Shown here: in pieces, positions 8,794-32,991 of the stretch | How positions within the stretch are numbered: the stretch's first letter is position 1 | Layout of the letters: every line of letters starts with the position of its first letter | Assembly (NCBI RefSeq): GCF_042453785.1 | Contig: NC_091667.1 | Span: 32,294,001 to 32,358,000 of the forward strand | Source: Malus domestica | Taxonomy: Eukaryota; Streptophyta; Magnoliopsida; Rosales; Rosaceae | DNA: 64,000 nucleotides | Direction: 5' to 3' | Position numbers and translations under genes: made by a program | Notes under the pieces: model-generated | Databases searched by the model: none | What the model was told of the DNA's origin: nothing | What the model saw: only the letters and a program-made list of their open reading frames with translations

Positions 8794-8866
8794 CTTAGTT
8801 GTATTGGGCTGGGCCTAGGTCGTTAGTTTTGCCACCATTTGCTATGGGCCCATTCTCCTATAAATA
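8794..8866 (+). promoter_or_regulatory. SF1 core promoter (site II motifs and TATA box)
   Basis: Two TGGGCC-type site II elements occur (near 8808-8816 and 8844-8852), common in plant housekeeping genes. TATAAATA at 8859-8866 predicts a start near 8890, about 95 bp before the SF1 ATG. No ATG lies between the predicted start and 8986. Confidence 0.65.
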
Positions 8867-8985
8867 TTCAGAGACGAGTCGTCCCGCTCTCATTTCACCA
8901 AACTAAAAATTTTCGTCTTCGGAAGCAAACACACATCTCTCTCTGGACTCCCTCTGGCACTCGAAGCTTCTCCAATCTCAAATCC

Positions 8986-11370
8986 ATGGAGGCTGCTCTT
9001 CCATCAAACCCTAACCCTCCTCCTCCAATCGAATCCCTAGATCCTCATCCCCCTCCTTCCGAAACCCTACCCTCCTACGATTTCAATCCCCCTCCTCCTG
9101 CGGAAACCCTAGCCTCTGATTCGAATGGCCCGCCTCAACCGCCGCACACTGAAACCCTAGCTTCCGATGCTCAAAACCCCTTCCCAAATCCCCAGATCGC
9201 TACTGAGAACGGTACTTCGACCGACGCCTGCAAGAAGCTTGCTATTACGAAGCCGCTGTTGTCGGAAAACGGCTTGACCAACACCAATAGCGGCAACGAA
9301 AGGGATGGCTCGGGCGGGGAGGAGGAGACGACCAGCAGGCGCCGCCGCCGCAGCCGGTGGGATCCTCAGCCCGAGTCGGAGAGTCAGAGTGGTGGTGGCG
9401 AGACGGGCAGTGGGACGAGGAAGAGGAAGTCGCGGTGGGCGGATGAGGAGCCGAAGGCGATTCAGCTGCCGGATTTCATGGGAGGTATTGAGTTCGATCC
9501 AGAAATTCAAGCTTTGAATAGTAGGTTGCTTGAGATTAGTCGAATGCTGTCTTCGGGTTTGCCCTTAGATGATCGTCCCGAAGGGGCTAGGTCTCCTTCG
9601 CCGGAACCTATATATGATAACATGGGAATTAGGATTAATACGAGAGAGTTCCGTGCCCGTGAAAGGTTGAACAAAGAGAGGCAGGAAATTATTGCTCAGA
9701 TTATTAAGAGGAACCCGGCATTTAAGCCCCCGGCTGATTACAGGCCACCCAAGCTTCATAAGAAGCTTTACATACCGATGAAGGAATATCCCGGATACAA
9801 TTTTATTGGACTTATCATTGGGCCGAGGGGTAATACGCAGAAGAGGATGGAGAAAGAAACTGGTGCAAAAATTGTCATTAGGGGTAAAGGTTCGGTGAAA
9901 GAGGGCAGGTCGCAACAGAAGAGGGATTTGAAACCCGACCCTTCAGAGAACGAGGACTTGCATGTTTTGGTTGAGGCAGATACACAAGACGCTCTTGATG
10001 CTGCGGCTGGGATGGTGGAGAAACTCTTGCAGCCTGTTGATGAGGTGTTGAATGAGCATAAGAGGCAGCAACTTAGGGAACTTGCGGCTTTGAATGGGAC
10101 AATAAGGGATGAGGAGTATTGTAGGTTGTGTGGTGAGCCGGGGCACCGTCAGTATGCTTGTCCATCACGTACTTCGACCTTCAAGAGCGATGTTCTTTGT
10201 AAGATATGTGGTGATGGTGGGCATCCAACCATTGATTGCCCAGTGAAGGGTACAACTGGGAAGAAAATGGATGATGAGTATCAGAACTTCTTGGCTGAGT
10301 TGGGGGGGACAGTTCCTGAATCCGCAACTAAGCAGACCGCTACATTGGCACTTGGCCCAGGCAACAGTACATCAAGCAATCCTCCTTGGGCTAACAGTAC
10401 TAGCAGCACTAGCAGTGCATCATCACATCCAGGCTTGGGATCAATTGGAGTCAAACCGGTCAAGGACTATGATGAGACAAACTTGTACATTGGATACTTG
10501 CCGCCTACCCTTGATGACGATGGTTTAATCCGATTGTTTTCAGCGTTTGGTGATATTGTGATGGCCAAAGTTATCAGGGACCGGGTTACCGGAGCGAGTA
10601 AGGGTTATGGTTTTGTGAAGTATGGAGATGTTCAGATGGCTAATAATGCAATTGCAAGCATGAATGGTTATCGCCTAGAGCAGCGAACCATTGCTGTCAG
10701 AGTTGCTGGCAAGCCTCCGCAGCCGGCTGGACCCCCAGCATCGGCAATGCCCACATACCCCGTTCCCCAGCCTGTTGCTTCCTATCCATCCCAGCAGTTT
10801 ACCCCCAGTGGTCCTCTTGGGAATGCACCACCTACTAGCTATGCGGGTGCTCCTGTTCCTTGGGGACCCCCTGTTCCTCCTCCTTATGCTCCTTATGCTC
10901 CGCCGCCTCCACCTCCCCCGGGTTCAACCATGTATCCTCCTCCCATGCCGGGTCAACATATGTCTCCTTATGGTGCACGATACCCTCCTCCCCCTGGTGC
11001 ACCACCTCAACCGATGACTTCAAATGAAGCACAACAGAGTTATCCCCCTCCAGGAGTTCAATCTGAACACAATGTCTCTACCCAATCTCTACAAACTAAT
11101 TTGTATGGTGGCTCCTCAGCACCAATGCCACCAAACGGCCAACACACTTATCCTGCTGCTTCATATGGTTACTCATCTTACTACAATGCAGTTCCACCGC
11201 CTCCACCTCCCCCCGGCCCTGTACCTGGATCAACTGCAGATCAATCTCAGAACATTGGTAACGTTCCATGGGCCACGAGTGCTCCGGTTCCCCCTCCTGC
11301 TTCTTCTGCGGAAAAGACAACTTATGGTGCAGATGCAGAGTATGAGAAGTTCATGGCAGAAATGAAATGA
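8986..11370 (+). CDS. SF1: Splicing factor 1 / branchpoint-binding protein
   Basis: Nuclear pre-mRNA splicing factor that binds the intron branchpoint and pairs with U2AF65 in early spliceosome assembly. It is 794 residues, intronless in the coding region, and of the length usual for plant SF1. The order is: proline-rich N-terminus; two KRKSRW-like U2AF-ligand motifs (RRRRSRWDP and [10 protein letters not shown]); SF1 helix-hairpin region ([15 protein letters not shown]); KH/QUA2 domain with [15 protein letters not shown] near residue 275; two CCHC zinc knuckles ([14 protein letters not shown] and [14 protein letters not shown], about 378-420); an RRM (LYIGYLPP...KGYGFVKY, about 497-575), which is typical of plant SF1 but absent from animal SF1; and a long Pro-rich tail. 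The frame is open upstream to 8839, but that stretch spans the TATA box and begins with TTG, so I choose ATG 8986. Confidence 0.96.
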
Positions 11371-14300: not shown

Positions 14301-14778
14301 CCCATTTTTTACTGATACTATGTTTAGGCCTTCCTATCGGTAATGTAGATAGGTTTTGCAGGAAACGGTACGTGAAGTACCGGTTAGTCGGAAGCGGTAT
14401 ACGCTCTGTTTGAGGTCGGGGTTCGGTTCTTCCCTTGTTTCGTGTTGAGTGTAGGATGCCTCTATCTCGAGCACAAAAATTGAAATCTAAAAACATGAAT
14501 GGTATTGGACTGGCCGTTCAAGAACTAGTTCATTGATATGTGCAAAAACTTGAAAGCTCTCATCGAGATGACGAATGAGATTGGACACGATGTGTTAACG
14601 ATACAGCCGTTAAAACCAAATAGCTACTTGCAATTGGAATTTTAATCAATGCGAGTACCATTGGTATATATGGTTTCATAACATTTGAGAATTGAGACGA
14701 TTTTTGTTACATGGGATATTCTAAAACTATTCTAATTTATGGCGTGAGAGATTTCCGATTAGTATTCGGTGCAGGGGG
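11371..14778 (+). other. SF1 3' region, probably spliced 3' UTR, then intergenic
   Basis: This 3.4-kb stretch has no convincing ORF. Just after the stop a good donor follows (GATAG|GTATGC near 11388), and acceptor-like sites occur later (for example TTTGCAG before 12272 and CTGCAG before 13821). One or more 3' UTR introns are therefore possible but unproven. A hairpin-forming CGGTAC/GTACCG pair lies near 14366-14382. The remainder is T-rich and uninformative. Confidence 0.4.
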
Positions 14779-14824
14779 AAATTGGGGAATTCTAGTATTT
14801 TATGCACTTATTCATTTGGGTGTT

Positions 14825-15035
14825 AATTGAACCTAAGACTTGATGATCATGATATGATTATCTATTTTGGAAGTGTGCAATCGAATTTAAGACCATCTAA
14901 TCGTGATACGCATATCCATTTGGATTTTTGCCTAACTTAAGACCATCTAATCTTAATACGCATATCTAATTGGATGTTTGTTGGATTTGAAACCATCTGA
15001 TCGTAATATGCTTATCCATTTTGGATTAGAACCAA
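14825..15035 (+). repeat. Degenerate tandem repeat of about 55 bp upstream of RPC4
   Basis: About four units share the core AAGACCATCTAATCGTGATA followed by CGCATATCCATTTGGAT with variations. The duplicated locus at 26400-26510 has only about two units, so the array has changed length since duplication. Confidence 0.7.
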
Positions 15036-15210
15036 ACCGAAGATAATTTTTTTTCTCAAAGGTAAGAATTTTATTAAATTCGAGTAGAGATGTTTACCTC
15101 AGAAGCTAATGTATTAAACAACTATTCAGGTGTCGCAAACCCTGTTACTACAGGTGTCTTGGGTTGTCCAATCATTGGGAACGTGATATATATAATTATT
15201 TTAGGGCTCC

Positions 15211-15217
15211 TATAAAC
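15211..15217 (+). promoter_or_regulatory. Putative RPC4 TATA box
   Basis: TATAAAC lies 130 bp before the RPC4 ATG. The matching position of the duplicated locus (about 26945-26975) has no such box. Confidence 0.45.
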
Positions 15218-15226
15218 TCTTCCAGA

Positions 15227-15301
15227 TAGCAGCATTGTAAGCTCCATCTAGCCTCCTCGCAAGCGACCTCGGTTCGACACCAGCTGTCCGCAATTTTTTT
15301 T
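15227..15301 (+). promoter_or_regulatory. tRNA-like Pol III box A / box B unit with T-run in the RPC4 leader
   Basis: An A-box-like TAGCAGCATTG (15227-15237, one mismatch to TRGYNNARNNG), a perfect B box GGTTCGACACC (15271-15281) and a run of eight Ts (15294-15301) span 75 bp, the size of a tRNA gene. The duplicated locus keeps a B box (GGTTCGATACC, about 27013) and the T-run. No cloverleaf was confirmed. It may be a relic of a tRNA-derived SINE. Confidence 0.4.
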
Positions 15302-15346
15302 CCCCAATTTTCATTTTTTCCGTTCTTCTTCTCCGTCGAGAAAGCC

Positions 15347-17889
15347 ATGGATAACGACGATCCCTCCGCCCGTCGCAGAAAGGTAACATCCAGCTCTTTC
15401 TCTCATCAAATTTCTTGTTCAATTTCACCATAACTCTATCCAGATCTGAAATTCTTGCTCTTCTTCTTTCCAGCGTAGGTTCATTCCCAAAGCCCAACCT
15501 CGCAAGAACCGCGAACCAACTGTTCCCACTCCGTAACTCTCATATTTTCACCCTCCAATTCCCTTTTAATTTCGTTTTCCGTCAAAATTCATAAGATTAT
15601 TAGTTTTCATTTGACATTTTTGAGCTGCGAATCGATGCAGCGACGCCGACGCCGACGACGATGACGGTCAAGAAACTCGTCGGGCCCAGACTCTGCTAAG
15701 TGAGTACAAAGTAAATTTCTCTCATCTTTCAACTTTGTTTTCTCTCTTTATTGCAGTCCGTATTTTTTTTTCTTTCATTTTCTTGCTTTAACAATTTCTT
15801 ATTTTTTGTATGTGAATTATTTATTCATTTGTTATTTCTTTCTAATTATCGTGTTTTTTTTAATTAAAAAAAAAACAGATTAAGCCGCTTTTGGCTTTTT
15901 TGAAAAGTTAGGTGAAGTCTTAACAATTTGATCATAGGGTGTGTTTGGTATGGTATTAAATTAGACAAATCCATAACGCGGAAATTTCCTCTTTTGGGGT
16001 TTGCGGTTTTGAGTTTAGACTTGCAAAATTACATTTTTCATTTGTCGGAAAATATGATGGATTGCACATGTGGGTTCGGCAAATTAGCGAAAAAATTGCG
16101 CCCGTCCTCTTTGCATCTTAAGTTCGAATCCTCTTTACTCTCAAGTTTGAGTCACCGTCCCCGTGTATAGAGGTAGTTTAGAAACAAAACATAATTCACG
16201 TTGTCTGCTTTGCCGCTATGTGCAGCTGAAATGTGGTTCTCAAGTGTATAACCTGGAATTACTCTTTCGTATGGTGTCTGTTTTGAAAAGGGTTAAGGGC
16301 TTGGTGTAAGAACACGAGCAGATGATTTATTTCTATCAGTTTTGTATAAGCATTAGCTGCACAGATGATTGATTTCTGTTGTTGCATTCACAGGAGAGAA
16401 GACGGGGGGCTAAACTCGAAAAGAAATGTAATTTCTCGTTAACTTTGCTTGCACGTTACTTGTTTTCTTTAGATTATCCTGGGTTTGCTTTCCGTTCATG
16501 TTTGCTGTTCAATCTGCAGCTTCAGTGCAAGTTGCATTTGGTCCCGGAGGAGCGGATGCATCCTCAACTTCTATCAGAACATTCGGAGCTGTAAAGGATG
16601 CCGATAGTGGCAAAAGCGGCAGCTTAGTTCTCAAAGGCTCTGATGAGGAGCAAAGTCTCCCAACTTTTCCTTCAGCCTCTAAGGAAGCTGAAACGGATGT
16701 AACTATGGAAGATGCTATTGATGCAGAACCACTTCAGATTGTCAAGAAAAATGATAGAGAATGTTGGGTTAGAGCATACGCCATATATCTGTCTCTACGT
16801 CACTCTATCTCTCTGTATTGTTCTCTCACAAACGCGTCTCTGGTGCTTCTACAGGATTATGAGAATACATACTATCCTACTACTCTCCCTCTCAGGCAAC
16901 CCAACTCTGGAGACCCAGGTATTCTTTCTGAAAGCTGGAAAACAGAGGGTTTTCCTTGCGCAATTTGATGGCACTTTTAGTTTATAGTCAGTCTTGTAAT
17001 TCATAGACCTTTTGTTTTGCTTTTAGAAATCCTTAATGCTAACGAATTTGGGGAGGATGCTGAAAAAGAGTATGATGAGAGCACGATAAATCCTGCTTCA
17101 AAACTCGGGCTGCTGGTGCGTATTAGATTAGTAACTTACTTCTGATGCAACAATGTTAAACGCTAAACAGAGTGATATATTTGATGGGATGTTGCAAAAT
17201 TTGCTTGACAGGAGGAAAAAGTGAAAGCGAAGTTGTTATTCGTTCAACTTCCTTCCATTTTGCCATTGACGTCAAAGCCATCAGCTACTGCAAAGGGCAA
17301 AGAGAAAGTTGGAAGCTCAAAATCACTGGAGAGCTCAGGTGCTCCAAAGAAGGAAGGTAGTTTGGAAGAGTTGCCAGCCGGATTTATGGGTAAAATGCTG
17401 GTTTACAAGAGCGGAGCAATCAAGCTGAGGCTAGGAGATACCCTCTATGATGTAAGTCACAGCCATTAACTTTCCTTAAACTGAAAGAAAGCAGGATTAT
17501 AGAAACTTCTTATCATTTTTGTCTGGTTATATATATGTTAAATCATTTCGTTATCAAGTTCAATAACGTTCGGTTTACTTACCACTTACTCTTACTGTTT
17601 CACAATCCATAGAATGATGATTTCGTGTCATCTGTCCGGCACAGAGTAGTTTGTCATCAGATTTCACCTCCTACAGAGTCCAAGCTAGATTCAAGTATTA
17701 TGAGAACATAATGTTCATTTATGTGCTTACGATACGCAGGTTTCACCTGGTTCAGATAGCATGTCTGCTCAAGATGTTGTGGTAGCCAACACTGCAGAGA
17801 AGAAATGCATCGTTCTTGGAGAGCTGCGCCAGCGAGCTGTTGTAACTCCTGATGTGGATTCCCTCCTAAATGTGATTAGCATCGATTGA
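15347..17889 (+). CDS. RPC4: DNA-directed RNA polymerase III subunit RPC4
   Basis: Subunit of RNA polymerase III (Rpc53/POLR3D family). It pairs with RPC5 (Rpc37) in a TFIIF-like subcomplex used in initiation and termination of tRNA and 5S transcription in the nucleus. Nine exons, all GT-AG: 15347-15382, 15474-15532, 15641-15710, 16394-16427, 16520-16767, 16855-16918, 17027-17115, 17212-17451 and 17740-17889. They encode 329 residues in a continuous frame. The N-terminus is basic (SARRRK, KAQPRKNR), then an acidic DDDDG stretch, ETRRAQTLLSEYK and ERRRGAKLEKK. The conserved family pieces are VQVAFGPGG, WDYENTYYPTTLPLR, LPAGFMGKMLVYKSGAIKL and the C-terminal CIVLGELRQRAVVTPDVDSLL. The start is the first ATG after the leader. 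It is convergent with the next gene. Its first part was duplicated into the chimeric gene at 27090-29221. Confidence 0.93.
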
Positions 17890-18741
17890 ATGCAGGGATG
17901 TTACCAAAATCGTGCATATTGAGGTGTAAATGGGGGAATTATGCACATGAGAAAGCTGAAATGGTAGATATGTAGAGGAAAATCTTGAGAGTAAATATGA
18001 TGCTAGAATTACTAATGCGGTTAAACTGTTTTATGTTTGCAATTTTGTTTAGTGAATCCATCTCTTTCAAGGATAACTATTTTTTTTTTACTGAATCCAT
18101 GTGGTTACAACAACAACAACAACAAAGTCTTTAGTATCATTGAGATTCAACGTGAAAATGGAGGGCCGGCTATCGACAACCTAACGCCCTCTCCTCCTCC
18201 TTTATCTTGGCTTGAGACCGGCAGTGTAAAATAAACTTACACAGTTGTTTTGCACTCATCATAAGAGTATATTTTTTAAATATAGAACGTTTGGAGTGCA
18301 CAATTAGATTTGTGAAGTGCGAATAACAATTCTCAAGCGATATTCTAAAATTTTACCGGGTAGGGAATTTGAACTTGGATAAAGAGTGATCAGATGTTCT
18401 TGGCCTTTCAAGTGAAAATTGCATAGTTGGACCTCAACCATTTGGTAATGACCATTCGAGCTGTGTTTTCGGTTGTAATTGTTGCCAAGAGACTGGGGTG
18501 GCAATGGAAAAATTAACAGAATCTCTAAAAAAAAGAAGGTAAATTAACAATATTAAAGAAAAAAAACATAGGTAATATCCATAAATCCCCATATTACAGG
18601 CAACCTGCAAATGTACCAGCACTGGAAGACCCTAACAAGCATAGTTTGAAACATAAACTGCCTAACGATGCAGCGGATTGGAAAACTTCAACAGCAAGTC
18701 ATCCAATGGGGATACACAGCGTGATGTCGTCGGATTTAGGG
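17890..18741. other. Convergent intergenic region between RPC4 and gene X
   Basis: Holds the RPC4 3' UTR, a short (CAA)n run near 18108-18125 and the 3' UTR of the minus-strand gene. From about 18363 upward the sequence is part of the segment copied in inverted orientation to 28221-29658. Confidence 0.6.
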
Positions 18742-20382
18742 TTAAGCCTTGTGGCTTCGAGTAACCACCACTATCAACAGGACCACAACAGAGAGCATGA
18801 ACGATATTTTCAGCTTGTCCTCAAAGCGATTGCTGGCTTCTGCTTTCGCGTTTTCACTGCTTGGAGGTTGAAAGAAGCCGCCCATGACCTTTGTAATTTT
18901 CTCGACTGCTTCCATGACTTTTGCCATGGTATTTTGAAAGATCCACTTCACAATGTTTGTAGCTTTATCGTTGTTATCATCAGAATTCTCTTGTGAACTC
19001 TCGGAGCTATTGTCTTCATCTGCATATATGATGAAAAATTTATGTCGAAACCAGCATTAGTCATGACTGCGTTCATCGAACTTGTGAGCATTGACAAGGT
19101 ATTTCATCTCTCAACTATTACAAGCTATAAATTTCAAGCTTATTGCTCTTAAGCTATAAATTTCACCTTATTTCATCACTGAAACACGCATGAACATACA
19201 TTCACAAGAAACAGAGGCAACTAACGCCAGGAAAACAACACGTAAAAGAGGCTTCTACGATTAACAAATGACGCTCGTGAACACAATATGACACTTGTGA
19301 AATCCTAGTGTAATGTTAGACTGTTATAATTAGAACTCAAAAGTCAATTAATGATACTCCTTACTGAAATTCATATCACACCAACCTGCATAGAAAGACT
19401 CGCGGAGCTCGCGCACCACCTCATTGTTCATCACAGCATCCCAAACCGCTGTATCAGATGACAATGCCATCACCATTCTCTGCACAAGAAAATACACTTG
19501 TGACATAATTCTAAAAATTTCATCCTCTGCAAGACAAAATGTGAAAATAATATATCAAACACAATCAAGGGTCGAAATATTCTTTAAGTTTACATGCAGT
19601 ATTCTGTTGGTATATGGTCCAGCCCATGATGAATGTTCTAGATTATTCTAGTAAGCAAGTGAGGTGGTTGGAGCATGCTAGACAATTCTAGCAAGTTATT
19701 AATTGGTGGAAGAAGCTAGAAAGTACTAGCTTCCTTGGTTGTAAATGGAAACATCTAGAAGCTACAATTTTGTGGCTAGTCTAGAATTATCTAAGTTAGA
19801 GGTTTGTAGAATATACTAGAAACTAGAAACTAGTTCTAGTTTGTAGAAGGAACTAGAAACTAGTAGAATGTCAAGCTCTCACCTATAAATATGGGTGTGA
19901 TGTTGTAGTGATGTAACCAATCAAGAAAGTAGTGAGTAGCAAAGGATCAAGTCCAAAGCTAGAGTTCTGCTCCAAAAGTGAGAGTGAGAGTGAGAGTGTT
20001 CCACTATACATTGTGAGTGAAGTTTAGAGTGATAGAAAGTGTGTGTTATACTTTCTTGTATCCATCAAGCCTTGTCTTTGGCTTGGTAAGACTACTCTTG
20101 TTGTACTCATCTTTTTTCATATAGTGAAAATCGATCCTTGTTTTGTGGACATGGGCATAAATTGCCAAACCACATAAATTCTTAGTGTCCATTTTCTACT
20201 TTACTTTGTACATTCTCTATCTTGTAGTTCCGACAGACATACCGAACATATTCAAACCAAAATTCAGAAATACATTAGAAACAAAAACGAAAGATATTAA
20301 AGAAAGGAACCTGCACAGAAGACTCAGTCTGCAAGAGATGGAAAGCATCATAAACTCTCTCAACACCGTGAGACTGCAACAT
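18363..20382 (-). repeat. Donor of inverted segmental duplication (copy at 28221-29658)
   Basis: The 3' part of gene X (end of exon 2, exons 3 and 4, 3' UTR) appears reverse-complemented at 28221-29658. The donor contains a solo LTR that the copy lacks. The copy contains a SINE fragment that the donor lacks. Confidence 0.92.
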
Positions 20383-21378
20383 TTTTGAATTATTAGAAAG
20401 ATAGGCAGAAGGCTCCATCCAATCTAATTCTGACCCAGCTGAAGGTGCTGGGTGCACAAACCCAGCAGGACTTGTAATTTGATCATCCACATCTCTGTCT
20501 GACTTAGAACCAAACTTATCCCTGATGAAGGGACTGAAAACCCTAATCCATTTCATCAAACAAGGCATGATTAGTTTAAACTACAACACTAGGCAGCTAA
20601 TTAATCATTTTTTTTATTTGACAAGTTGATAAACTAATCTAAATTACGAGGAAGGAATTTAAAGTCGAATGCGATAGGTCATGCACGCCTGCCCTCGCCA
20701 ACAAACCTGACCCATAACTGCCGCTGCCGGCATAAATTTTTTTATGATGCGATGATAAATTAAACTAATTTACAAGCATGGGCAGGAAAATTTGAATTCG
20801 AGTGCACCAGACAATAAAGACTTCTTTAACTAACTGGCCTAACTCGCATCTACAAATACATAAAATAAAATGACAGAAAGGGTTTTATTTATCAGAGACA
20901 AAGAGCATTGAGTTGCTTACTGATGAAGGGCAGAGACAGCATTGTGAACTTCATGCTTGGAAGGAACAGGTCCAAGAACAAAATCATCCATTAACCCATG
21001 TGAAAGTCTCTCATCATCCTCACTGCTAACCCCATTATCCACAGTCACCCAATCAAAATCATCAAAGCGAGGGGAAGAAGGCCAACTGGATGTCCCACAA
21101 TTGGAAGCCAGAGGAATATTGCATGAGGAAAAAGGAGAAGTGGGTGAGGAGAGAGAGAGGTTGTGGGAAGAACTGGGCTTCTGGTTGTGCCTAGAAGTGG
21201 AGGTGGCGGTAGTATTTGTGGTGGTGGTATTAGCAGCAGCAGAACTGGAAGAAGAAGATAGGGGTTCTTGAATCGGTGGACCACCAGCAATAGTTCTGGT
21301 GACTGCTGCCCTACTCACAGCCTTAAACATGCTTCCTCCTCCACCTCCTCCGCCCATGCTTCTCCCACCAAACATCAT
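18742..21378 (-). CDS. Uncharacterised plant tail-anchored protein (gene X)
   Basis: I do not recognise a named family. Four exons read on the minus strand: 21378-20921, 20542-20311, 19479-19386 and 19019-18742, all GT-AG. They give 353 residues with no frame break. Residues 1-110 are low complexity, Gly-rich then Ser/Thr-rich (MMFGGRSMGGGGGGG). A conserved-looking block follows (SWPSSPRFDDFDWV, FVLGPVPSKHEV, SELDWMEPS, ERVYDAFHLLQTE, DTAVWDAVMNNEVVREL), then an acidic stretch and an amphipathic helix (IFQNTMAKVMEAVEKITKVM). It ends in a hydrophobic segment (FMLSVVVLLIVVV) with a short basic tail, the pattern of a tail-anchored membrane protein. ATG 21378 is used because the frame upstream begins only with GTG. 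Convergent with RPC4. Intron 2 carries a solo LTR. Its last 147 residues were duplicated into the chimeric gene. Confidence 0.85.
19605..20248 (+). mobile_element. Solo LTR (644 bp) in intron 2 of gene X
   Basis: Begins TGTTGG and ends CGAACA (TG...CA), flanked by the perfect 5-bp duplication TATTC (19600-19604 and 20249-20253). It has CTATAAATA near 19882, so it is plus oriented, antisense to the host gene. The duplicated copy of this intron (28293-28572) keeps the empty site, which confirms the boundaries. Confidence 0.92.
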
Positions 21379-22381
21379 TGACACAGAACTTTTAGGTTTT
21401 TTTTCTTACTCCTTTTTTAGATCTCAGACTGTGTATCTTTGTCTTCCTTCTACGTTATGTAAACCTAGGAGGAGCCAGGATTCAGTGGATTCCTTTGCTT
21501 GTCTGCCTCTGACTCCTGTTCTGTTGATATTCTCGAGGCCATGATGTGGATAGGTATATAAAATGGTTCAGAGTTTCATTGGCGTCACAAACTTCTTGTT
21601 AACAAAAGAAGGCTCCACGTTTTGGTTCCTTGTGGGAGGTGGCTTCCCCTTATCTTTCTGTTGGTTATTCGTTTGCTTTTATTTTTGGCGAAAGTTTATT
21701 CCTTTGCTTGGATGTATATCATTCATTATTTTCTGTTGTTATGTACATAACGTTAACCCAAATAAAAATACTTTATTTATAACATGTATGATCTTGGCCG
21801 GTTGATTGGGACAGTGAACAGTGAACTCAAAGTTCTAGTCTTTATTATATCGGAACAAATAGGGTCCCTAGAAATATTGAATCAAGTGGTGGATTATCTT
21901 GTTGGTTAAAACATCTTCTTCATTTTACTATATCTTGGTAAGAAGATTCTCTCCGAATTTCTTCCATCCAGATTCCTTACATGATGTACGTTCAACCGAA
22001 AATCAAATAATCATAAATTCATTAACTTTCATCTTCACTGTTCGTCTTCTTTCTCTTCTCACTCTCTCTCCGACTCTATTCTCCATCTCTCTCTCACTCT
22101 CCTCTCTCTTTATCTTCTCTATCCCTATTTTTCTGACTTTTTTTTGGTTGTGAAAACTTTTTGTTCCCAATGGCCCAACCAATTAGAACCCAGAAAATTT
22201 TGCACAAGTTCGGCCTAAAAATCACCACTAGGGAGGCCCAAGTTAGCAATGCATGTACAGAAAACGGGAGAACCAATGGAAAATGTTATAAAACCCTAGC
22301 TAGTTCCGAAAACCTAAATAAACGTCCAAGTTTTAGTATAAGAGACGAGAGAGGACGGAGGAGGTCGGTCCCTCCACAGAC
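21379..22381. other. Divergent upstream region of gene X and the RPL15-like promoter
   Basis: Contains the gene X 5' flank and, near 22165-22380, a housekeeping-type promoter. Site II motifs appear as CCCAATGGCCCAA (22168-22180) and AGGCCCAA near 22233, with a telo-box AAACCCTAG near 22291. TC-rich runs occupy 22050-22120. No further ORF is credible. Confidence 0.5.
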
Positions 22382-23531
22382 CATGGGTACGTTACTTTCT
22401 CTAATCTCAGGATTTTTTCAATCTGAACACGTCTCTTTTTCTCGGTTGCTCCATTTTACTAAGGCTGTACTTGATTGATTAATGATGCTACTGGTTTTTG
22501 CTGATGAGAAAAACTTGGCAAAGTTAAGAAAACATATGAATTTTGTGCTTTCCATTGCATTTCTCCCCAACCCATGAAAGTGGAACCTAAGATTTGCTCG
22601 TGTTCTATGGAATTATTATTTTTTGTTTCGTCGTTGCTTTAGTTTTGAATGTGATGTGTTTTAGTGTTTTGAAATATAATAGGATACTGCCAGTTAACGT
22701 TATGGAAGGGAGGCCATCCAATGTTATGAATACAACCAAAATGAAGATTCAGTCGACAAAGATGACTAGTGTTTGTTCCTTCTTTGGCCCTTCCTAGACA
22801 ATAAGGGGGAGATTTTATTTTAGCTAGGGGGGAGTTTTTATTTGGTTGTATTCATTATGTATGATGGGGCGTTAGTATCCTGCAAAGTTCGAGAAGAAGG
22901 TGATCGACGATCGAGTTAATGTTGTTCCGCTTTCACTTGGAGACTGGAAAAATTGAGTAGCCAAGGCGTGGAGACAAAACTGCCTTCTAGTTATGGATGT
23001 ATTAAGATGAGTTTTGTAAGTTTTTTTTTTTTTGTATTCATTCCTCTTAGTGTATCATGGCTTGGTAGCTTGAAGATTTTCTCATTGGCAGGTTTTGCCT
23101 TGTTAAATTTTACATGTACGTCCACTCTCTATGTTTCTACTAAATATTAATGTGTAGGATTTAGTCTACATAACTGGTAATTTAGACTACATTTTGAATT
23201 AGACTTTAAGCTTGAACATATTCACCCCTAAGTTAGATTGGTACCATCCAAGAACTTTCATTAAGGCAATTGTTTAACCTAGAAAAATGTTTGCATTGAA
23301 TTTGAGTTTTTGGACATCCACATAGTTTTGAGAATTGAGAAGTGTCTCTCATTTATCACCGTTCTAGTGGTTGATGTTATACAATATCTTTTACCAAAGA
23401 ATTTTGTGTGTACCTAAAACGCTATCACGTAGTACTACTAATTTATGTATTATTATATAAGTGAGCGACATAGTTGATATGTCACACTTTTTAAATATAT
23501 TAATAATTTGAGTGAAATAGTAACATCGAGA

Positions 23532-23573
<42 letters not shown>

Positions 23574-23639
23574 GGGAATGTTACCCCTTTTAACTATCTT
23601 CCTTGCAGGATCAACTGGATCTGCTTGAACTGTGAAGGG
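22382..23639 (+). pseudogene. Ribosomal protein L15 pseudogene, copy 1 (partial)
   Basis: Starts with a short first exon ATGG|GT (22382-22385) behind site II and telo-box motifs, as expected for a ribosomal protein gene beginning Met-Gly. The exon encoding most of the N-terminal half is not found. At 23609-23634, after a TTGCAG acceptor, the sequence matches the RPL15 exon block encoding INWIC, then degenerates. The sequence at 23225-23600 (intron) closely matches 32410-32740 next to the clearer L15 copy, which supports the assignment. An LTR element is inserted at 23640. The identity rests mainly on that flank match, so confidence is moderate. Confidence 0.55.
23534..23571 (+). repeat. (AT)n microsatellite
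   Basis: A TA dinucleotide run of about 19 units. The duplicated flank near 32700 has only a few units, so it expanded after duplication. Confidence 0.95.
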
Positions 23640-26287
23640 TGTTGGATTTGTGACCAAGTGGACAACAAGCCAAAATACCTTTCGGCTAATAAAATAGAAT
23701 AAGGAAAAGGGGGACATCATTATGATGTCTAGCCCTTGATTTGTGGCTTTTACAAAGGCAAAGAATATGTAGCCGAAAGAGAGAAGAGGTGAGAGAGAAG
23801 GCGGGGCCTTTTGTTTATATTAAGGCATTTGGTTATGCCTTTAGAAAAGTGAGAGTGGGGGAGCGGCAGATGAGAGAAACCAGGGAGAGCATTCGGCTCT
23901 CCCATTTGAATATGAGCTGCTCCTTCCCACCATTTGTAATAATCCCATTTTGTTAGTAATCACTCAATCAAAGATGTTGGTGCTACTTGTGTAGCTTTTG
24001 GGTGAGAAGGATTTTGATATGTGTTTCTTCTTCTCCATTTATTTCTTAGTTTGAGTGAAAGCTATTGATTGTATGTGAGATTTGGGTTTGAGAGTTAAAA
24101 CTCTATTTGTAATCTCCTTTTGATATTAGTGGAATTTCCTCGCCGTCTCGGAATTGGACGTAGGCTTACGCCGAACCAGTATAAATCCTTGTGTTTTGGA
24201 TTATTTGTCTTGTCATATTTTGCCGTTGTAACTTATTGGTTTCATATTTGACGCTTCCGCACAACAAGTGGTATCAAAGCTCTGGGTTTCGACTTGGGGT
24301 TTTGTATTAGTATGTCTATGAAATCTTCGAATGACGGTGAAATATGTTTTTTTGAAAAAATTGGACAGGAGGAATGACTTTGGCATTTGGTCAATTGGAG
24401 ATGCAGAGTTTGGCTGCAAAATGCATGGCGTTGAAGAAGGATAGTAAGGGACTATGCTGCAGTCACTGAGCTCGCAGATTGGAGAATGGTTTCGGAAACA
24501 ACGTGTCTGCTGCAATGTTGTTGTCGATGTTGTTGAAGTGTTGGTGTTCGACGGCTGCAGGTGTAGTGTACTGCTTTTGGTGGGTTTTCCGTTGGTCATC
24601 GTTGCACCGGAGGTGTTTGTGGGCTGTTGTCGATGAGTTGAGTGGGAAGAAGAAAAAGTAGAAGCTGTTGAAAATTGGAAAGAAAATGTTGGTTCTTTTT
24701 CTTTCGGCATTTGTTTTGGCAGAAGGACATCATGATGACAAATGATGTTGTTGGTTGGAAGAAAAGGGAAAAAGGCTAAGGCTAAGTTTTCTTTTCTTTG
24801 GCATTTTTTCAATGGCAGAAATTGTTTGGTTGTTTTTTCACTCCCATTGGTTGCCTTTGGAGCAAGTTGCTGGAAACATTGGAGGAGTTTGTGAGGGCCA
24901 ATTTGTTAAGTTCTGCAAGTTTGGATAGTGAGACACCACACTATTTTGGATACACCACTTGCACTGCAGAACATTTGTGTGGGACCCTCTTGTAGAAGGC
25001 AAGTTATGCTTTCTAACTTTGTTTGGTTTATGTACATTTGGTTGGATTTGTTTGCCACTGCTATTTGGTTTGTTGGTCTCCATCATCTGCAATTAGCTTT
25101 TTTGAAGACTCCAGTTGAGGTATGGTTTTGGATCTCCTACTGATTATTTGAATTTGAAATTTTGGTTGTCTTGTTGGTGCTCATGTGATGATGGTAAACT
25201 TGAGTGAAGGGCATATTTTTTGTATGTGGTATGTGAGACCTTGTTGCCAAATTTGTAATCAGTTTTGACTTGGAGAATGTGCCATGCTATGTGAATGAGT
25301 CTATTGGTGCAGTTTCAGACCATGGTGTTTATGAGCAGGTGGAGTTCGTTGTATGTCCAACTTTGGTATGGTGTGCTTGATCTTTTGTTGGTGATATTGA
25401 AGAATTTCAGTTCTTTGCTTGAATCACCTTTTGTTTTGATCAAGGCACTTATGGCTTGCAAATTTGGAGAAGACGGTAGAGAAATGGTCTACTTTTGTTG
25501 GCTTTGGTACAATTTGAGTCGAGGTGGAGACCATTATGAGTACCGAAAGTTTGGGAAATTTGATTTAGTTCCCGTTGTCTTTAGTTTGTACTTTGAGTGC
25601 TTATGGTGATTGTTGATTCGATTCTCTATGATGTTTTCGGAACTTGGTCAAGGTGGAGATTGTTGGATTTGTGACCAAGTGGACAACAAGCCAAAATACC
25701 TTTCGGCTAATAAAATAGAATAAGGAAAATGGGGACATCATTATGATGTCTAGCCCTTGATTTGTGGCTTTTACAAAAACAAAGAATATGTAGCCGAAAG
25801 AGAGAAGAGGTGAGAGAGAAGGCGGGGCCTTTTGTTTATATTAAGGCATTTGGTTATGCCTTTAGAAAAGTGAGAGTGGGGGAGCGGCAGATGAGAGAAA
25901 CCAGGGAGAGCATTCGGCTCTCCCATTTGAATATGAGCTGCTCCTTCCCACCATTTGTAATAATCCCATTTTGTTAGTAATCACTCAATCAAAGATGTTG
26001 GTGCTACTTGTGTAGCTTTTGGGAGAGAAGGATTTTGATATGTGTTTCTTCTTCTCCATTTATTTCTTAGTTTGAGTGAGAGCTATTGATTGTATGTGAG
26101 ATTTGGGTTTGAGAGTTAAAACTCTATTTGTAATCTCCTTTTGATATTAGTGGAATTTCCTCGCCGTCTCGGAATTGGACGTAGGCTTACGCCGAACCAG
26201 TATAAATCCTTGTGTTTTGGATTATTTGTCTTGTCATATTTTGCCGTTGTAACTTATTGGTTTCATATTTGACGCTTCCGCACAACA
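23640..26287 (+). mobile_element. Young non-autonomous Copia-like LTR retrotransposon
   Basis: Complete element of 2,648 bp. The LTRs, 23640-24266 and 25661-26287, are each 627 bp with TGTTGG...CAACA ends and differ at about five positions by my reading. The target duplication AAGGG is perfect (23635-23639 and 26288-26292). A primer-binding site complementary to initiator Met-tRNA (TGGTATCAAAGC) begins two or three bases after the 5' LTR. The polypurine tract AAGGTGGAGAT abuts the 3' LTR. The 1.4-kb interior has no protease, integrase or RT. It keeps only a frameshifted gag-like scrap near 24365-24420 (KLDRRNDFGIW, reminiscent of Copia gag). It must rely on proteins supplied by another element. 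Confidence 0.93.
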
Positions 26288-26361
26288 AAGGGTCTGTAAA
26301 ACCAACCCATAAGAGAAGCAGTTGTAATGCTTTCCTTAACGAAAGTGACGGTTTATAAGGA

Positions 26362-28220
26362 ACTTGGGAAATTCTTGTATTTGATGCACTTATTCATTGG
26401 GGTGTTAATTGAACGTAAGACTTAATGATCATGATACGCTTGTTCATTTGGATGTTTGCCGAACTTAAGACCTTCTGATCGTAATATGCTTATCCATTTA
26501 GGATTATAACCAATCCTAAGATTAGTTGATCATTAACAGTGTCACAAAGCTATCACTTTGTAATATGGTCTAGTGGTATTCCTTTCACTTGTAAGTGATA
26601 GGTCTTACTTATTAGGTTTGATTCTCACCAAAATTAAATTGATCACTTTATTGTTAACCCATTGTAAGACTAAGTCCACTCTCTCCCTTAGTATAGATAA
26701 TATCGTTTGTTCAAAAATAAAAAATAATGTCACAAAGCCTGTTATTACAAGTATATTGGGCGAAATTTGACGAATTGAGTAGTATACGTACTGATGCATT
26801 AAGGACTTTTTATTAGCGTTACAAACATAACGCTACAAAGACAGGAACAAAACATGTTCAAGTCTCTTTATCTAATTTTATTAGTGGATTCCTACCAAAT
26901 TTAGTTAAGTTATTCAAGCATTAGGAGCACGTATATATGCAATTATTTATCTCCAGCAACGTTGCCGGATGGCAGGGTGGTAAATTTCGTCTATCCTCTT
27001 CGGAAACGACCTCGGTTCGATACCCGCCTTCTGCATTTTTTTTCCTCCCAATTTTAATTTTTTCGTCCTTCTTCTCCGTCGAAAAAGCCATGGATATCGA
27101 CGACCCTTCCGCCCGTCGCAGAAAGGTAACATCCAGCTCTTTCTCTCTCATCAAATTTCTTGTTCAATTTCACGATGACTCCATCCAGACCTGAAATTCT
27201 TGCTCTTCTTCTTTCCAGCATGGGTTCATTTCCAAAGCCCAACCTCGCAAGAATCGCGAACCAACTGTTCCCACTCCGTAACTCTCATAATTTCACCCTC
27301 CAGTTCCCATTTGATTTCATTTTTCGTCAAAGTTCATATCATTGTTAGTTTTTCATTTGACATTTTTGAGCTGCGAATCGGTGCAGCGACGTCGGCGGCG
27401 ACGACGATGACGGTCAAGAAACTCGTCGGGCGCAGACTCTGCTGAGTGAGTACAATGTAAGCTCTCTCACCTTTCAGCTTTCAATTTTGTTTTCTTTCTT
27501 TATCGCTGTCCGTAATTTTTTTTTTTTTTTTTGCATTTTCTTGCTTAAACAATTTCTTGTTTTTTGTACGTCAGTTATTTATTCATTTGTTATCTTTTTA
27601 ATTATTGGGTTATTTTTTATTTAAAATAAAATAATAAAGAGATTACGCGGCTTTTGGCTTTTGGCTTTTGGCTTTTTTGAAAAGTTAAATAACTCTGGTG
27701 GCAATTTGGTCATAGGGGTGTGTTTGGTATGGTATTAAATTAGACAATCCAAACTAAGGAAATTTCCTCTTTTGGGGTTTACGGTTTAGAGTTTCGACTT
27801 TTAATTTTCATTTTCGATTTGGCAGAAAAGGAGATGGATTGCACATGTGGGTTGGGCAAATTAACAAAAAAATTGTGCCCTTCCTCTTTGCATCCAAGTT
27901 CGAATCTTTCTTACTCTTCCTTACTCTTCCTTACTCTTTTAAGTTTGAGCTACCGTCCCCATATATAGAGTAGTTTAGAAATAGAACATAATTCACACTG
28001 TATGTTTTGCCTATATGTGCAGCTGAAATGTGGTTCTCAAGTGTATAACCTGGAATTACTCTTTCGCATGATGTCTGTTTTGAAAAGGGTTTGGGGTTTA
28101 GGCTAAGAATACGCACAGATGACTGGTTTCTTTCAGTTTTGTATAAGCATTAGCTGCACAGATGATTGATTTCTGTTGTTGCATTCACAGGAGAGAAGAC
28201 GGGGGGATAAAGTCGAAAAG
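26362..28220 (+). repeat. Direct segmental duplicate of RPC4 5' region
   Basis: Copy of 14779-16423 (upstream region, exons 1-3, part of exon 4), with a SINE added. It ends inside the fusion exon, where gene X sequence begins at 28221. Confidence 0.92.
26551..26727 (+). mobile_element. tRNA-derived SINE upstream of the chimeric gene
   Basis: 177 bp flanked by the 11-bp duplication TGTCACAAAGC (26540-26550 and 26728-26738). A box TGGTCTAGTGGT and B-box-like GGTTTGATTC lie at the 5' end, and an A-rich 3' end follows. The corresponding place upstream of RPC4 lacks it, so it inserted after the segmental duplication. Confidence 0.88.
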
Positions 28221-29221
28221 ATGTTGCAGTCTCATGGTTCTGAGAGAGTTTACGATGCTTTCCATCTCTTGCAAACTGAGTCTTCTGTGCAGGTCCCTTT
28301 CTTTAATATCTTTATTTTTGTTTCTTATATCTGAATTTTTTGATTGAATAGTTCATGTACATTTAAAGAAATTAGACCGTTGATTCTGTTCGGTAAATTA
28401 TTGTTACATTTTATCTTGCAGATGATGAAATTTTTAGAATTATAGAATTATGTCATAAAATGGGGTAAGGCTAGCCGACATTCACCTCTCCCAGACCCTG
28501 CGTAAAGTGAGAGCTTTGTGCACTGGGTACGACCTTTATAGAATTATGTCATAAGGGTATTTTCTTGTGCAGAGAATGGTGATGGCATTGTCATCTGATA
28601 CAGCGGTTTGGGATGCTGTGATGAACAATGAGGTGGTGCGGGAGCTCCGGGGGTCTTCCTATGCAGGTTGGTGTGATATGAATTTCAGTAACGAGTATCA
28701 GTAATTGAATTTAGGGTTCTAATTATAACATTCTAACATTGCAATAAGAGTCCACGAGTCTCATATTGTGTTCACGAGCGTCTTTTGTTATTCATAGATG
28801 CCTCTTTTACGTGTTGTTTTCCTGGTGTTAGTTGCATCTGTTGCTTATGTATGTATGTTCATACGTGTTTCACAAGTAAGATGAATGTAGTCATGACTAA
28901 TGCTGGTTTCGACATGAATTTTTCATCATCGACGCAGATGAAGAAAATAGCTCTGATAGTCCACAAGAGAATTCTGATGATAACAACGATAAAGCAACAA
29001 ACATTGTGAAATGGATCTTTCAAAACACTATGGCAAAAGTCATGGAAGCAATCGAGAAAGTTACGAAGGTCATGGGCGATTTATTTCAACCTCCAAGCAG
29101 TGGAAATGCGAAAGCAGAAGCCAGCAATCGCTTTGAGGACAAGCTGAAAACATCGTTCATGCTCTCCGTTGTGGTCCTGTTGATTGTGGTGGTTATTCGA
29201 ACCCACAAGGCTTCACCCTAA
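27090..29221 (+). CDS. Chimeric gene: RPC4 N-terminus fused to gene X tail-anchor region
   Basis: Six exons, all GT-AG: 27090-27125, 27219-27277, 27387-27456, 28191-28292, 28573-28666 and 28938-29221. They encode 214 residues in an unbroken frame. Residues 1-65 derive from RPC4 (MDIDDPSARRRK, KAQPRKNREPTVPTP, GQETRRAQTLLSEYN, ERRRGDKVEK). Residues 66-214 derive from gene X (MLQSHGSERVYDAFHLL onward), ending in the hydrophobic segment FMLSVVVLLIVVV. The junction lies inside exon 4 (28220/28221) at short A-rich microhomology. Relative to the parents, the gene X part is inverted in the genome. It lacks all conserved RPC4 C-terminal domains, so it cannot replace RPC4. Predicted product: a tail-anchored protein with a basic cytosolic N-terminus. 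The RPC4 promoter region was copied too, though the TATAAAC box is not kept. Expression is unknown. Confidence 0.8.
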
Positions 29222-29658
29222 ATCCGACGACATCACATTGTATATCCCCATTGGATGACTTGCTGTTGAAGTTTTCCAATCCTCTGCATTGTTAAGCATT
29301 TTATGTTTCAAACTGTGCTTTGTTATGGTCTTCCAGTGCTGGTACATTTGCAGGATGCCTGCAATATGGGGATTTATGGATACGACCTATGTTTTTTGTT
29401 TGCGAGGGTGGGATGAACAACGTCTATTGTACACAACTTTACATTGTTTTACCTTCTTTTCTTTTTTTTAATATTAGTAATTACATGTTTTTAGATATCA
29501 ATAAATTTTTTTTATTGCCACCAGAATCTTTTGGCAACAAATACAACCGAAAACACAACTCGAACAGTAATTACCAAACAGTTGAGGTTCAACTGTGCAA
29601 TTTTCACTTGAAAGGCCAAGTACATCTCATCACTCTTTATCCGAGTTCAAATTTCCAG
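28221..29658 (+). repeat. Inverted segmental duplicate of gene X 3' half
   Basis: Reverse-complement copy of 18363-20382 without the solo LTR. It includes the 3' UTR beyond the chimeric stop codon, up to about 29658, where the homology ends. Confidence 0.92.
28459..28535 (+). mobile_element. 5'-truncated SINE fragment in chimeric gene intron 4
   Basis: A 77-bp insert flanked by a perfect 19-bp duplication (28440-28458 and 28536-28554, TTATAGAATTATGTCATAA). Its sequence (CACCTCTCCCAGACCCTG ... CACTGGGTACGACC) resembles the common 3' half of plant Au-type SINEs. It is absent from the parental intron. Confidence 0.85.
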
Positions 29659-30180
29659 TAGATTTCAATAGTTTAGAACAGATTTTTTAGGTGTCGTAAT
29701 AGTTTCCTATTGCTTTGTTAAACATATAAGGTTTTTTATGTCAAAATAATCCATGAGATTGACATAACTCTGCAGTTTTGGTCTCTAACATTGAAATTGG
29801 TAGAAGTACTCCCTGAGTTTGTTCAATATCAATCATTTTAGTATTTCCGTAAAAAAATCTCCGTTAAATGAAAAAGTAAGTGGAGCGGTTGATTGACAAA
29901 ATTACCCGTAATTTAATAGAATTTTTTTATGGAATGACCAAAATGATTGACGATTGACAAACTTAACGATTTTCAATTGAAGGTTGTATTTGGTTAATTA
30001 ATGATGTTATTACTGGTTTTGGCTGATGAGAAAAACTTGGCAAAGTTAAGAAAATGGGTGTGTTTTTGCTCACCACCCTCAAGTAGTGGAAATGCTCACC
30101 ACCTTATTTATGAGTATAAATTTTGAGATTTGTATTGTGGATAGACACAAATCTCAAATTTAAACTAATTCAACAGTATT
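29659..30180. other. Junction region with L15-flank scrap and half MITE
   Basis: 29660-29960 holds dispersed-repeat-like sequence of unknown type. 29985-30058 matches 22480-22550 in the first intron of the L15 copy 1. 30066-30180 resembles one half of the fold-back element at 40758-40885 (GCTCACCACC; TTTTGAGATTTGT and its complement). Confidence 0.55.
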
Positions 30181-30184
30181 CAAG

Positions 30185-31556
30185 GTTGGAATCGTGAAAG
30201 AAAATTGGAAAGAGGATCTGAGAAAGACAACAGGTTCAGATCTAGTTCCGGAGGTAAGGGTCCACAGTGTTACGGTGCAAGGCCGGGTGGTAGCAAGTTT
30301 ATAGCATAAGGCTTCGAGTATGCCCTCTAGGTACTCGAAGCAACACTTCTCCTGGTGATGTTTAGTCTCAAGTGTTGCAAGGGTTTTGCAGCAGGTGGAG
30401 CTATAGGATTCACAGGTGATGAGATGGTCCTGAGGTAGGAGGAAGTGTGGGAATTTTGTCTGGCTCAATGGGTTGTTGCTGGAAATAGGCGCACTGACGA
30501 GTTTCCAGGTTGTAAACAATGAAGAGGAGGAAAACCTGCTGGAGGAGACGAGGATGTGTCGAGATCCTGTCTGAAGCTAAATGGTGATTTTTAGCTTGCA
30601 GCATCTGTACATGCATTGGCAGTGACTGAATCGGAACAGGACCAACGAGGTTGATTCAGGGTGTATATGCTGATACGTAAGGCCAATGGAGACTTTGGCA
30701 ATGGATGCAAGGTTTTTTGCATGGTATATTCGCCAAGGTGGAGATTGTTGTGTTTGGCTCATATACTTATGAGTTGGCAACAATTTTGATAGTGTAACTT
30801 TCTGAGTGCTATAGGGAAATGGCAGTAGCCACTGTGTGTTTGGCTTTCGGTTGTGGCATGGAAGTCTTGTTTCAAGAGAAGACATGGTGACTACCACAAA
30901 CAAAGTTGGAAGCAAGACTTGACTTTGTGGTTGCTTGCACACAATTGTGCATGTTTTATTGTGCATGTTTTCTCTTCTATGCATTAAATGACAAATGGAG
31001 AAAAGTTGTACTTTATAGACTAGGTATAGACTTTGGTGCATGCTAGGTAGGCTAGGTAATAATTATGTCATGTGAACTTAAGACTTTTTGGTCTTGGTTG
31101 TTGGCATAGTTTCTAGTGTATGCCTATAATTAGATGCAATATTTGTGCATTTAGTAATGCTTAGAAAATGGGAAGGTAAGCGTCCAAGGTGGAGAGAGCA
31201 TTCGGCTCTCCCATGGGAAAGGTTGAACATGGGTTGAGAGAAAATCAAGAGAGCTAGAGTGAAAAGTATTCAAGTGAAAGAACTCTTGGGGTAGAGTGAG
31301 ACTCTTGGGAAAATTCTATGAGTGGGTGTGCAAGGGATTCGGGATTGAGTTATGTTGATTTAACTCATGTGTACTTGTACTGTTATTCATAGTGAAGAGC
31401 AATATCTCTCCGAGGATGTAGGCATGTTTTTGCCGAACCTCGTAAATTTCTCGGTGTCTTTATTTCTTGTATTTTATTATGTTCAACTAAGTATAATTTG
31501 GTGAGGTTGTAATCTGAATCTCATTTCTGCACTAACGAACGAGCCAAGGCACAACA
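30185..31556 (+). mobile_element. 5'-truncated LTR retroelement with 3' LTR
   Basis: The 3' LTR is 30746-31556 (811 bp, TGTTGTG...GCACAACA). It is preceded by the polypurine tract CAAGGTGGAGAT, as in the element at 23640-26287, and by about 560 bp of non-coding interior. No 5' LTR was found. The LTR has the hairpin GAGAGC-ATTCG-GCTCTC (31194-31210) and a GATGTAGGCA...GCCGAACCTCG block near the 3' end, both shared in kind with the other element. Non-autonomous and Copia-like by these features. Confidence 0.75.
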
Positions 31557-31955
31557 GGAAATAATTAGAGTTTTTGCCCTCGATAATGTTACACTTAAAG
31601 ACGCTTCAAACCTAATATATGCTTTTGAAAAGCACTATTCCTTTTTTTCAATAGACGAAGGGTACCAAAACTATTTCACAGTCAATTATCGAACAAGTGT
31701 TTTTTTATCCAATTAAACTCTCTTAAGTGTTTTGTTTAATTGAACTTATAAGATTGGTTAAGTGTTCTTGAGTATTTAGAGTTTGTTCTTCTGTAAAACA
31801 GACACAGTTATACGAAAAATCAAGAAACAGGATAGATGGTCCATTATCTTTCATGTTAATGGTGGAAGATAATGTTATTCTTTATCCCCAACGACTAGGT
31901 TGGAATTCTACCTGCTGTGCTTCAGATTCTGTGACTAAAGTTTACCTCTTTGCAG

Positions 31956-32991
31956 GGCTATGTTGTTTCGTGTGAGATGCGGTGGACGTAAGTCTTAAGA
32001 GACCAGTTTTTAAGGGTATTGTGTATAGTAAACCCTCAAACCAGGGCGTCACTCAATTGAAATAACAACGGAGCAAGCGCGCGGTTGCAGAGTAACAGGC
32101 TGGCCGGAAACTAGGCGGTCTCAAGGTTCTCAACTCTTACTGGGTTAACGAGGTAATCACAACAAGCTGATTAACATGATTGCATTCATATACATGCTCT
32201 ATTATCTTCTAATTTTAGGGTTTGTCGACAAAATTATGATGGCTTCTTGTGATATATGTGACGGGGGACATTGATGAGTCCCTAAACTGAACGGAGCAGG
32301 CAACCAATGCTTGTACATTTCAAATATTAACATCGCATATCGATTAGTCTTCACATCCTACAGAAAATTAGAAACTTAATGCGAGTACTTGGTACCCTTG
32401 ACTTCCGAATGACATAAGTTAGGGTAATTGTCTAACCTAGAAAATTGTTTGCATTGAATTTGAGTTTTTGGACATGCACATATATAGTTTTGAGAATTGA
32501 GAAGTGTCTCTCGTTTATCACCATCAACCGTTTGATGTTATACGATATCTTTTACTAAAGAATTTTGTGTGTACTTGAAACACTGTCACATGATACTACT
32601 AATTTACGTGTAATTATATAAGTGAGCGACATAGTTGATAAGTCACACTTCTAGAATATATATATCAATAATTTGAGTGAAATAGTAAAACATGGGGATG
32701 ACACATATAAACAGAAAAATTACCCCTTTTAACTGTCTTCCTTGCAGGATTCAACATACAAATATTATGAGGGGTAATCTTGGTTGAAGCTGCCCACAAT
32801 GCAATCCGCAACGACACAAGGATGAACTGGATCTGCAATCGGTTCACAACCACAGGGAGCTTGGCGGACTCACTTCTGCTGGAAAGAAGTGCAGAGGCTT
32901 GAATATCAAGGGACACTTGCACCGCAAGCTACAACGGTCGAGGAGGGCAAATTGGAAGAGGAACAACATGGTATCTCTTCCACGCTATCGA
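31956..32991 (+). pseudogene. Ribosomal protein L15 pseudogene, copy 2
   Basis: Two exons of a 60S ribosomal protein L15 gene are readable. 31956-32152, after a TTTGCAG acceptor, encodes GYVV then GGRK and the remains of the L15 middle in shifting frames. 32748-32991 encodes [36 protein letters not shown] and [10 protein letters not shown] two-base insertion follows TATTATGAG, further frameshifts occur, stops appear in exon 3, and the normal stop after the final RYR is gone. The N-terminal exon is missing, its place being taken by the LTR element upstream. The intron between the exons is intact in form (GTAATC...TTGCAG). Not functional. Confidence 0.85.

Follow-up and report, generated by a model that had tools for sequence, protein, structure and literature searches.

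How did a gene arise in apple that joins the 5′ end of the Pol III subunit gene RPC4 to the reversed 3′ half of the neighboring gene, here called gene X, and is its reading frame kept because the product has a function? To answer this, we analyzed a window of 64,000 nucleotides from Malus domestica (C7:32294001-32358000), which lies on chromosome 7 if, as it appears, the contig number corresponds to the chromosome number. Other long open frames in the window are located at 4284-6956 (−), presumably an NLR resistance gene, at 8827-11370 (+), which we take to encode a branch-point-binding splicing factor, and at 49110-51833 (+), by our assumption a leucine-rich-repeat receptor kinase.

Parent genes and anatomy of the chimera

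The convergent arrangement of the two parents given in the original prediction was confirmed, and both genes are intact. The parents, the chimera and its parts are:

15347..17889, + strand: parent 1, RPC4 (Pol III subunit), 9 exons, 329 aa
18742..21378, − strand: parent 2, gene X, 4 exons, 353 aa, PF27707 tag in the protein database
27090..27125, + strand: chimera exon 1, from RPC4 exon 1
27219..27277, + strand: chimera exon 2, from RPC4 exon 2
27387..27456, + strand: chimera exon 3, from RPC4 exon 3
28191..28292, + strand: chimera exon 4, the fusion exon, RPC4 exon 4 up to 28220 and X exon 2 from 28221
28217..28223, + strand: fusion junction
28454..28544, + strand: SINE-like short dispersed element inserted in chimera intron 4
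28573..28666, + strand: chimera exon 5, from X exon 3
28938..29221, + strand: chimera exon 6, from X exon 4, with a hydrophobic C-terminal helix and a shifted stop

The RPC4 parent carries Pfam PF05132 at residues 206-319 (E=9.8e-25) and differs from its apple database match at 3 of 329 residues. The gene X protein is identical to ACFX13_042473, the locus tag of which adjoins that of the chimera, ACFX13_042474. No match to X was present in the local Pfam copy, and a literature search on UCP012943, the name of one family database entry, yielded two papers with a single mention each and no described function. Neighboring locus tags for X and RPC4 also occur in several further plants, e.g. Rhamnella (RR24270/RR24271), Jatropha (JCGZ_26274/26275) and Craigia (189200/189100), and the neighborhood that allowed the fusion therefore looks old. 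In intron 2 of the parental X, about 640 bases (19605-20243 of the window) are missing from the chimera and probably represent a parental insertion after the duplication.

The chimera (27090-29221, +) has six exons with 645 nt, i.e. 214 codons plus stop in one frame, composed of RPC4 exons 1-4 (65 codons) and X exons 2-4 in reverse orientation; the latter contribute 149 residues, of which 147 align to X. As predicted, the frame and all ten splice sites are kept despite substitutions; the five introns are bounded by GT and AG throughout. With coding parts of two genes in one frame, the locus is a chimeric (fusion) gene, and a processed (retro)pseudogene or retrocopy is ruled out by the five retained introns. 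The stop had also been predicted to be kept; a single open frame does run to a stop, but its position is displaced by two codons, since X ends with HKA-stop and the chimera with HKASP-stop. The HKASP tail is also found in two M. baccata and two pear proteins. The SINE-like element in intron 4 is bordered by TATAGAATTATGTCATAA on both sides and occurs at 91-98% identity at at least 32 other genomic places.

By BLAST, 26909-28221 matches 15163-16424 in forward orientation (83%) and 28217-29656 matches 20386-18363 reversed in four pieces (83-91%); with E=0, the parental match is not due to chance. Upstream of the chimera, about 180 bp of recognizable RPC4 sequence precede the start. Among the best candidates scored, the full 2132-base chimera query matched end to end at one place only. 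The breakpoint lies within exon 4 (28220/28221), inside an exon and in an A-rich context as proposed, while the claimed microhomology was refined to a perfect overlap of one base (A) with the present-day X of C7 or of five bases (AAAGA) with the C1b form of X.

For the protein, no PF05132 match was obtained at E up to 1, and the one match in the local Pfam copy, Gemin6_C, was far below the cut-off (E=0.16). The PF27707.1 tag on the chimera protein is the protein database's own, the local Pfam copy giving no significant match for either X or the chimera. Identity to X is 91% over 69% of the chimera, which places the C-terminal part in the X family; X residues 1-206, and with them the N-terminal region, are missing. 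The best hydrophobic window (residues 189-207, mean hydropathy 2.32) provides a C-terminal hydrophobic segment as in tail-anchored proteins. In the AF2 model (mean pLDDT 56.4), the leader is mostly under 50, the X half is helical and a C-terminal helix spans residues 183-211; the 65-residue RPC4-derived leader is thus predicted to be mostly disordered. Of the proposed tail-anchored protein with the basic N-terminus of a Pol III subunit, the tail-anchor-like C-terminus stands, but the basic motif is altered by R14G (R/K in 116 of 119 family members) and P17S (P in 115 of 119). Position 13, where the chimera has H instead of R, is variable in the family. As the RPC4 domain is absent, the RPC4 part would supply start and promoter, and a role in Pol III is unlikely. 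Judged by these models, the most likely product would be a membrane-anchored, shortened form of X whose translation starts in RPC4-derived sequence.

Block order and age of the duplication

Alignment of the region around the chimera with the parental block revealed two tandem copies with the following elements:

14777..23615, + strand: tandem copy 1, original order, RPC4 and X convergent
23632..26288, no strand assigned: short element resembling an LTR retrotransposon, located between the tandem copies, with 98.7% identity of its LTRs and flanked by AAGGG on each side
26359..32755, + strand: tandem copy 2, rearranged (deletion-inversion-deletion)
28217..29656, + strand: inverted piece of copy 2, corresponding to 20386-18363 on the minus strand
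29717..29980, no strand assigned: dispersed repeat, MITE-like, with matches in both orientations, bordering the inverted piece on the right

To the left of the inverted piece, 26359-28221 is forward-collinear with 14777-16424, with gaps. To the right, 29969-30075 and 32419-32755 are in forward orientation with 22453-22554 and 23261-23615, respectively, and the right flank of copy 2 is also continued forward by the related C1 locus (31777-32328 and 32706-32799). Copy 2 has no match to parental 16425-18362 or 20387-22452 (E up to 0.01), and each parental segment is found at most once in it. The dispersed repeat makes up most of 29657-29979, and alignment of this interval with the missing parental parts gave nothing better than shuffled sequences. 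The LTR element between the copies is young.

Forward collinearity on both flanks of the flipped piece points to a tandem duplication of the RPC4-X block followed by deletion, inversion and deletion in one copy. From the forward copy joined to a reverse copy, the original prediction had deduced replication template switching (FoSTeS/MMBIR), by which the fusion would have formed in one step, RPC4 being copied forward and then X in reverse. The deletion-inversion-deletion pattern and the 1-5 shared bases at the join fit such an event, as does the presence of a dispersed repeat next to the right end of the inverted piece. The deduction itself was not supported, however, because each flank runs forward in line with copy 1 as well as with C1 and each parental segment was found at most once in copy 2, so that an existing tandem duplicate that was broken and rejoined explains the structure with no extra copying. 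Template switching is therefore possible but not needed, and we regard it as rather unlikely.

The C1 locus carries RPC4 (+) and X (−) without this duplication or inversion in the 16 kb examined. Non-coding divergence is 0.110 between chimera and parent and 0.213-0.216 between either of them and C1; the duplication is accordingly younger than the split of the C1 and C7 loci, which we take to be the whole-genome duplication of the apple tribe. For the RPC4 homoeologue, apple and pear differ by 16 mismatches in 230 columns, and the apple homoeologues differ by 64 in 330. By a rough RPC4 protein clock, about half of the chimera branch would fall after the Malus-Pyrus split.

Gene X has been duplicated again on the C1 chromosome, where a 3.3-kb tandem copy of X with the last RPC4 exon (C1:27797488-27804055, L009/L010) is 98.3% identical and very recent. 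Fragments of X in which exon 2 runs directly into exon 3, with no intron between them, are located at C5:18734236-18734460 (L011) and C2:5151423-5151648 (L012). The C2 fragment recurs in the predicted apple protein P0242 together with a piece of a PfkB kinase, possibly a further X-derived chimera.

The fusion in Malus and Pyrus and constraint on its coding sequence

The chimera protein is identical to 'hypothetical protein ACFX13_042474 [Malus domestica]' (P0001), the representative of a cluster at 90% identity comprising 8 sequences on 30 contigs. The initial protein search covered the best 120 of 238 matches. Related genomes had been proposed as a place to look for the same junction, and the fusion does occur in protein models of M. 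baccata (P0002 and P0004) and of a pear hybrid (P0003). An assembly mis-join or annotation artefact, which would make the fusion spurious, is very improbable given the 30 contigs and the recurrence in M. baccata and pear models; moreover, the non-coding parts of the chimera differ from the parents at 11% of sites and hence do not derive from a misplaced parental read. Outside Malus and Pyrus, no fusion junction was found among 20 proteins from 24 candidates in a search around residues 20-100, in which fusion status was judged by name, length and fetched sequences and only P0001-P0004 qualified. The presence of the fusion in both Malus and pear protein models shows that it predates the Malus-Pyrus split.

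The models differ in their details. In P0003, the RPC4-derived portion of exon 4 is read in a frame other than the one that the X part requires in apple, which implies one extra base, i.e. a frameshift, just after the join. As expected from such a frameshift, a protein from another pear (P0012) begins only with the first methionine encoded in the X exon 3 part. Changes disabling the gene in other accessions, which had been named as a possible objection to it, are thus implied by a pear protein model (P0003), but absent at the junction of the two M. baccata models. In the latter, exons 1-3 are spliced or framed differently from M. domestica, so that the sequence of the RPC4 leader may vary within Malus. 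Among the five chimera-type proteins, the X half differs at 20 positions, two of them at the frame change. The chromosome-7-type RPC4 of Pyrus communis is predicted as a protein of 143 aa (P0241), which departs from the RPC4 sequence at about residue 103.

These models bear on the possibility that the chimera is a decaying by-product, in which case the fusion would never have had a function, and chance together with constraint dating from a stage at which copy 2 still contained whole genes would account for the open frame in apple. The broken junction frame in the pear model and the altered RPC4-half motif speak for it. The same applies to the Malus models, which carry V105A, V111M, L114R and E116G at positions agreeing in 98, 100, 93 and 76% of 55 family members, respectively, and which differ by 4-5 per 149 residues, a pace not below that of the RPC4 homoeologue (9 differences in 291 aligned residues, P0122-P0124). 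On the other hand, the substitution and indel patterns described below argue against a chimera that was unconstrained throughout.

Pairwise comparison of the chimera with its parents, as proposed earlier, gave a dN/dS of 0.58 over the 65 codons of the RPC4 half and of 0.24 over 147 codons of the X half. The RPC4 half is not separable from neutral, although the RPC4 parents themselves differ at 0.57 over this half. In 600 unconstrained simulations per setting, an X-half dN/dS of 0.24 or less was reached in 0-0.8%; with half-strength constraint (dN/dS 0.5) on the chimera, which accounts for the X half about equally well, values that low appeared in 1.7-36.5% of the runs. Of 46 family-conserved columns of the X half, the chimera departs from 2, one of them shared with the parent.

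For assignment of changes to branches, one DNA locus, C1, served as outgroup, with X there in two copies, and 21-28 changes were counted at an assumed transition weight of 2, omitting 32 columns where all three sequences differ. The chimera branch received 3 synonymous and 2 non-synonymous changes in the RPC4 half and 8 of each in the X half; 1 synonymous and 4 non-synonymous changes in the RPC4 half and 1 of each in the X half were not assignable. R13H and R14G could not be polarized at the codon level, because C1 lacks both codons. Over the whole CDS, non-synonymous changes make up 10 of 21 on the chimera branch compared with 15.7 expected (P=0.0074), and 15 of 28 if all ambiguous changes are assigned to the chimera (P=0.013). 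The RPC4 half taken by itself is indistinguishable from neutral (P=0.12-0.26). In the X half, the ratio of non-synonymous to synonymous changes is the same on the chimera branch (8:8) and on the parent branch (6:6), which is a further point against the by-product.

Introns and flanks contain 225 mismatches in 1862 aligned bases and 37 gaps, with a 95-base gap excluded and a 62-base 3′-flank insertion counted as seven, whereas the exons contain 47 mismatches in 643 bases and no gap, with 4 junction bases counted twice and the X stop codon included. With split indels merged, 11 of 12 non-coding indels on the chimera branch are frame-changing, and the absence of indels from the chimera CDS compares with 4.4 frame-changing ones expected (P=0.012). 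For indels shorter than 30 bp, the expectation is 3.6 (P=0.027); with split indels counted apart, the 95-base and 61-base differences being taken as five, it is 5.2 (P=0.0054). In simulations with branch rates, an unconstrained chimera stayed intact with a probability of 0.0008 over the full branch. Over half of the branch this probability is 0.03 and over a quarter 0.18, values that leave more room for the by-product. A cruder rate, taking the chimera branch as half the pairwise divergence, gave 0.00025. Merging of split indels weakens the indel evidence two- to fivefold, and branch rates weaken the intactness evidence about threefold.

Taken as sequence evidence, the counts with C1 as outgroup show purifying selection on the chimera branch over the whole CDS, the signal resting on the X half; part of this constraint may predate the fusion. 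We consider the by-product a serious possibility, falling somewhat short of probable.

Proposed origin of the gene and comparison with known systems

We favor, as on balance the probable course, a tandem duplication followed by deletion, inversion and deletion that produced an in-frame fusion gene functional as a shortened X. After the whole-genome duplication relating apple chromosomes 1 and 7, the 8.8-kb RPC4-X block would have been duplicated in tandem on the chromosome-7 lineage. Before the apple-pear split, exons 5-9 of RPC4 and the 5′ end of X would have been deleted from copy 2, the remaining X piece (18363-20386) would have been flipped, and joining at an A-rich stretch would have let the reading frame of RPC4 exon 4 continue into X exon 2. 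The resulting protein would begin at the RPC4 start codon, continue with a disordered leader of 65 residues and end with the tail-anchored C-terminal part of X, which is helical. Transcribed presumably from the RPC4-derived promoter, it may reside in the membrane as a truncated X without the N-terminal region and act as a modified or competing X. That the gene was born in the apple-pear ancestor by inversion within a tandem duplicate, was selectively kept in Malus, places a shortened tail-anchored X under control of the RPC4 promoter and leader, and lost its junction frame in pear is, as a complete account, unlikely to be right in every part.

The locus is a clean and datable case of antiparallel neighbors becoming one gene via inversion within a tandem duplicate, with both parents beside the fusion and a related locus without the rearrangement serving as outgroup. 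Should the gene have a function in apple but none in pear, the locus would provide a direct test of when the frame of a fusion starts to matter. If the gene is kept by selection in Malus and its frame lost in pear, the two genera would form a natural test of the role of the fusion.

In searches of open-licence literature, no paper on this apple fusion was found among the papers listed, in line with the original view that it had not been described; a gene model of it is, however, already present at NCBI. Fusion genes are common in plants, and 310 of them are given for four Oryza species by Zhou et al. 2022 (PMC9199173). According to the same article, Oryza Type I fusion genes resemble the apple case in that both parents are present and duplication precedes fusion, and 2 of 35 have their parents in the same region, as in apple. 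The Oryza same-region pattern as described there involves splice-site mutation or skipping, whereas in apple an inversion in a tandem duplicate joins antiparallel neighbors within an exon. Rice, with DGS1/DGS2 (PMC5555463), is likewise a plant in which the same Pol III subunit gene has been duplicated; there, loss-of-function alleles of the RPC4 copies lead to hybrid pollen sterility, whereas the apple copy is a fusion without RPC4 domain. For chimeric genes of Drosophila yakuba (PMC5460883, PMC4503668), tandem duplication is described as a source of new gene structures and expression, and in apple, too, the starting point is a tandem duplication. Compared with these, the apple copy is also inverted and trimmed, belongs to a plant, and its fusion is of sufficient age to be shared by two genera.
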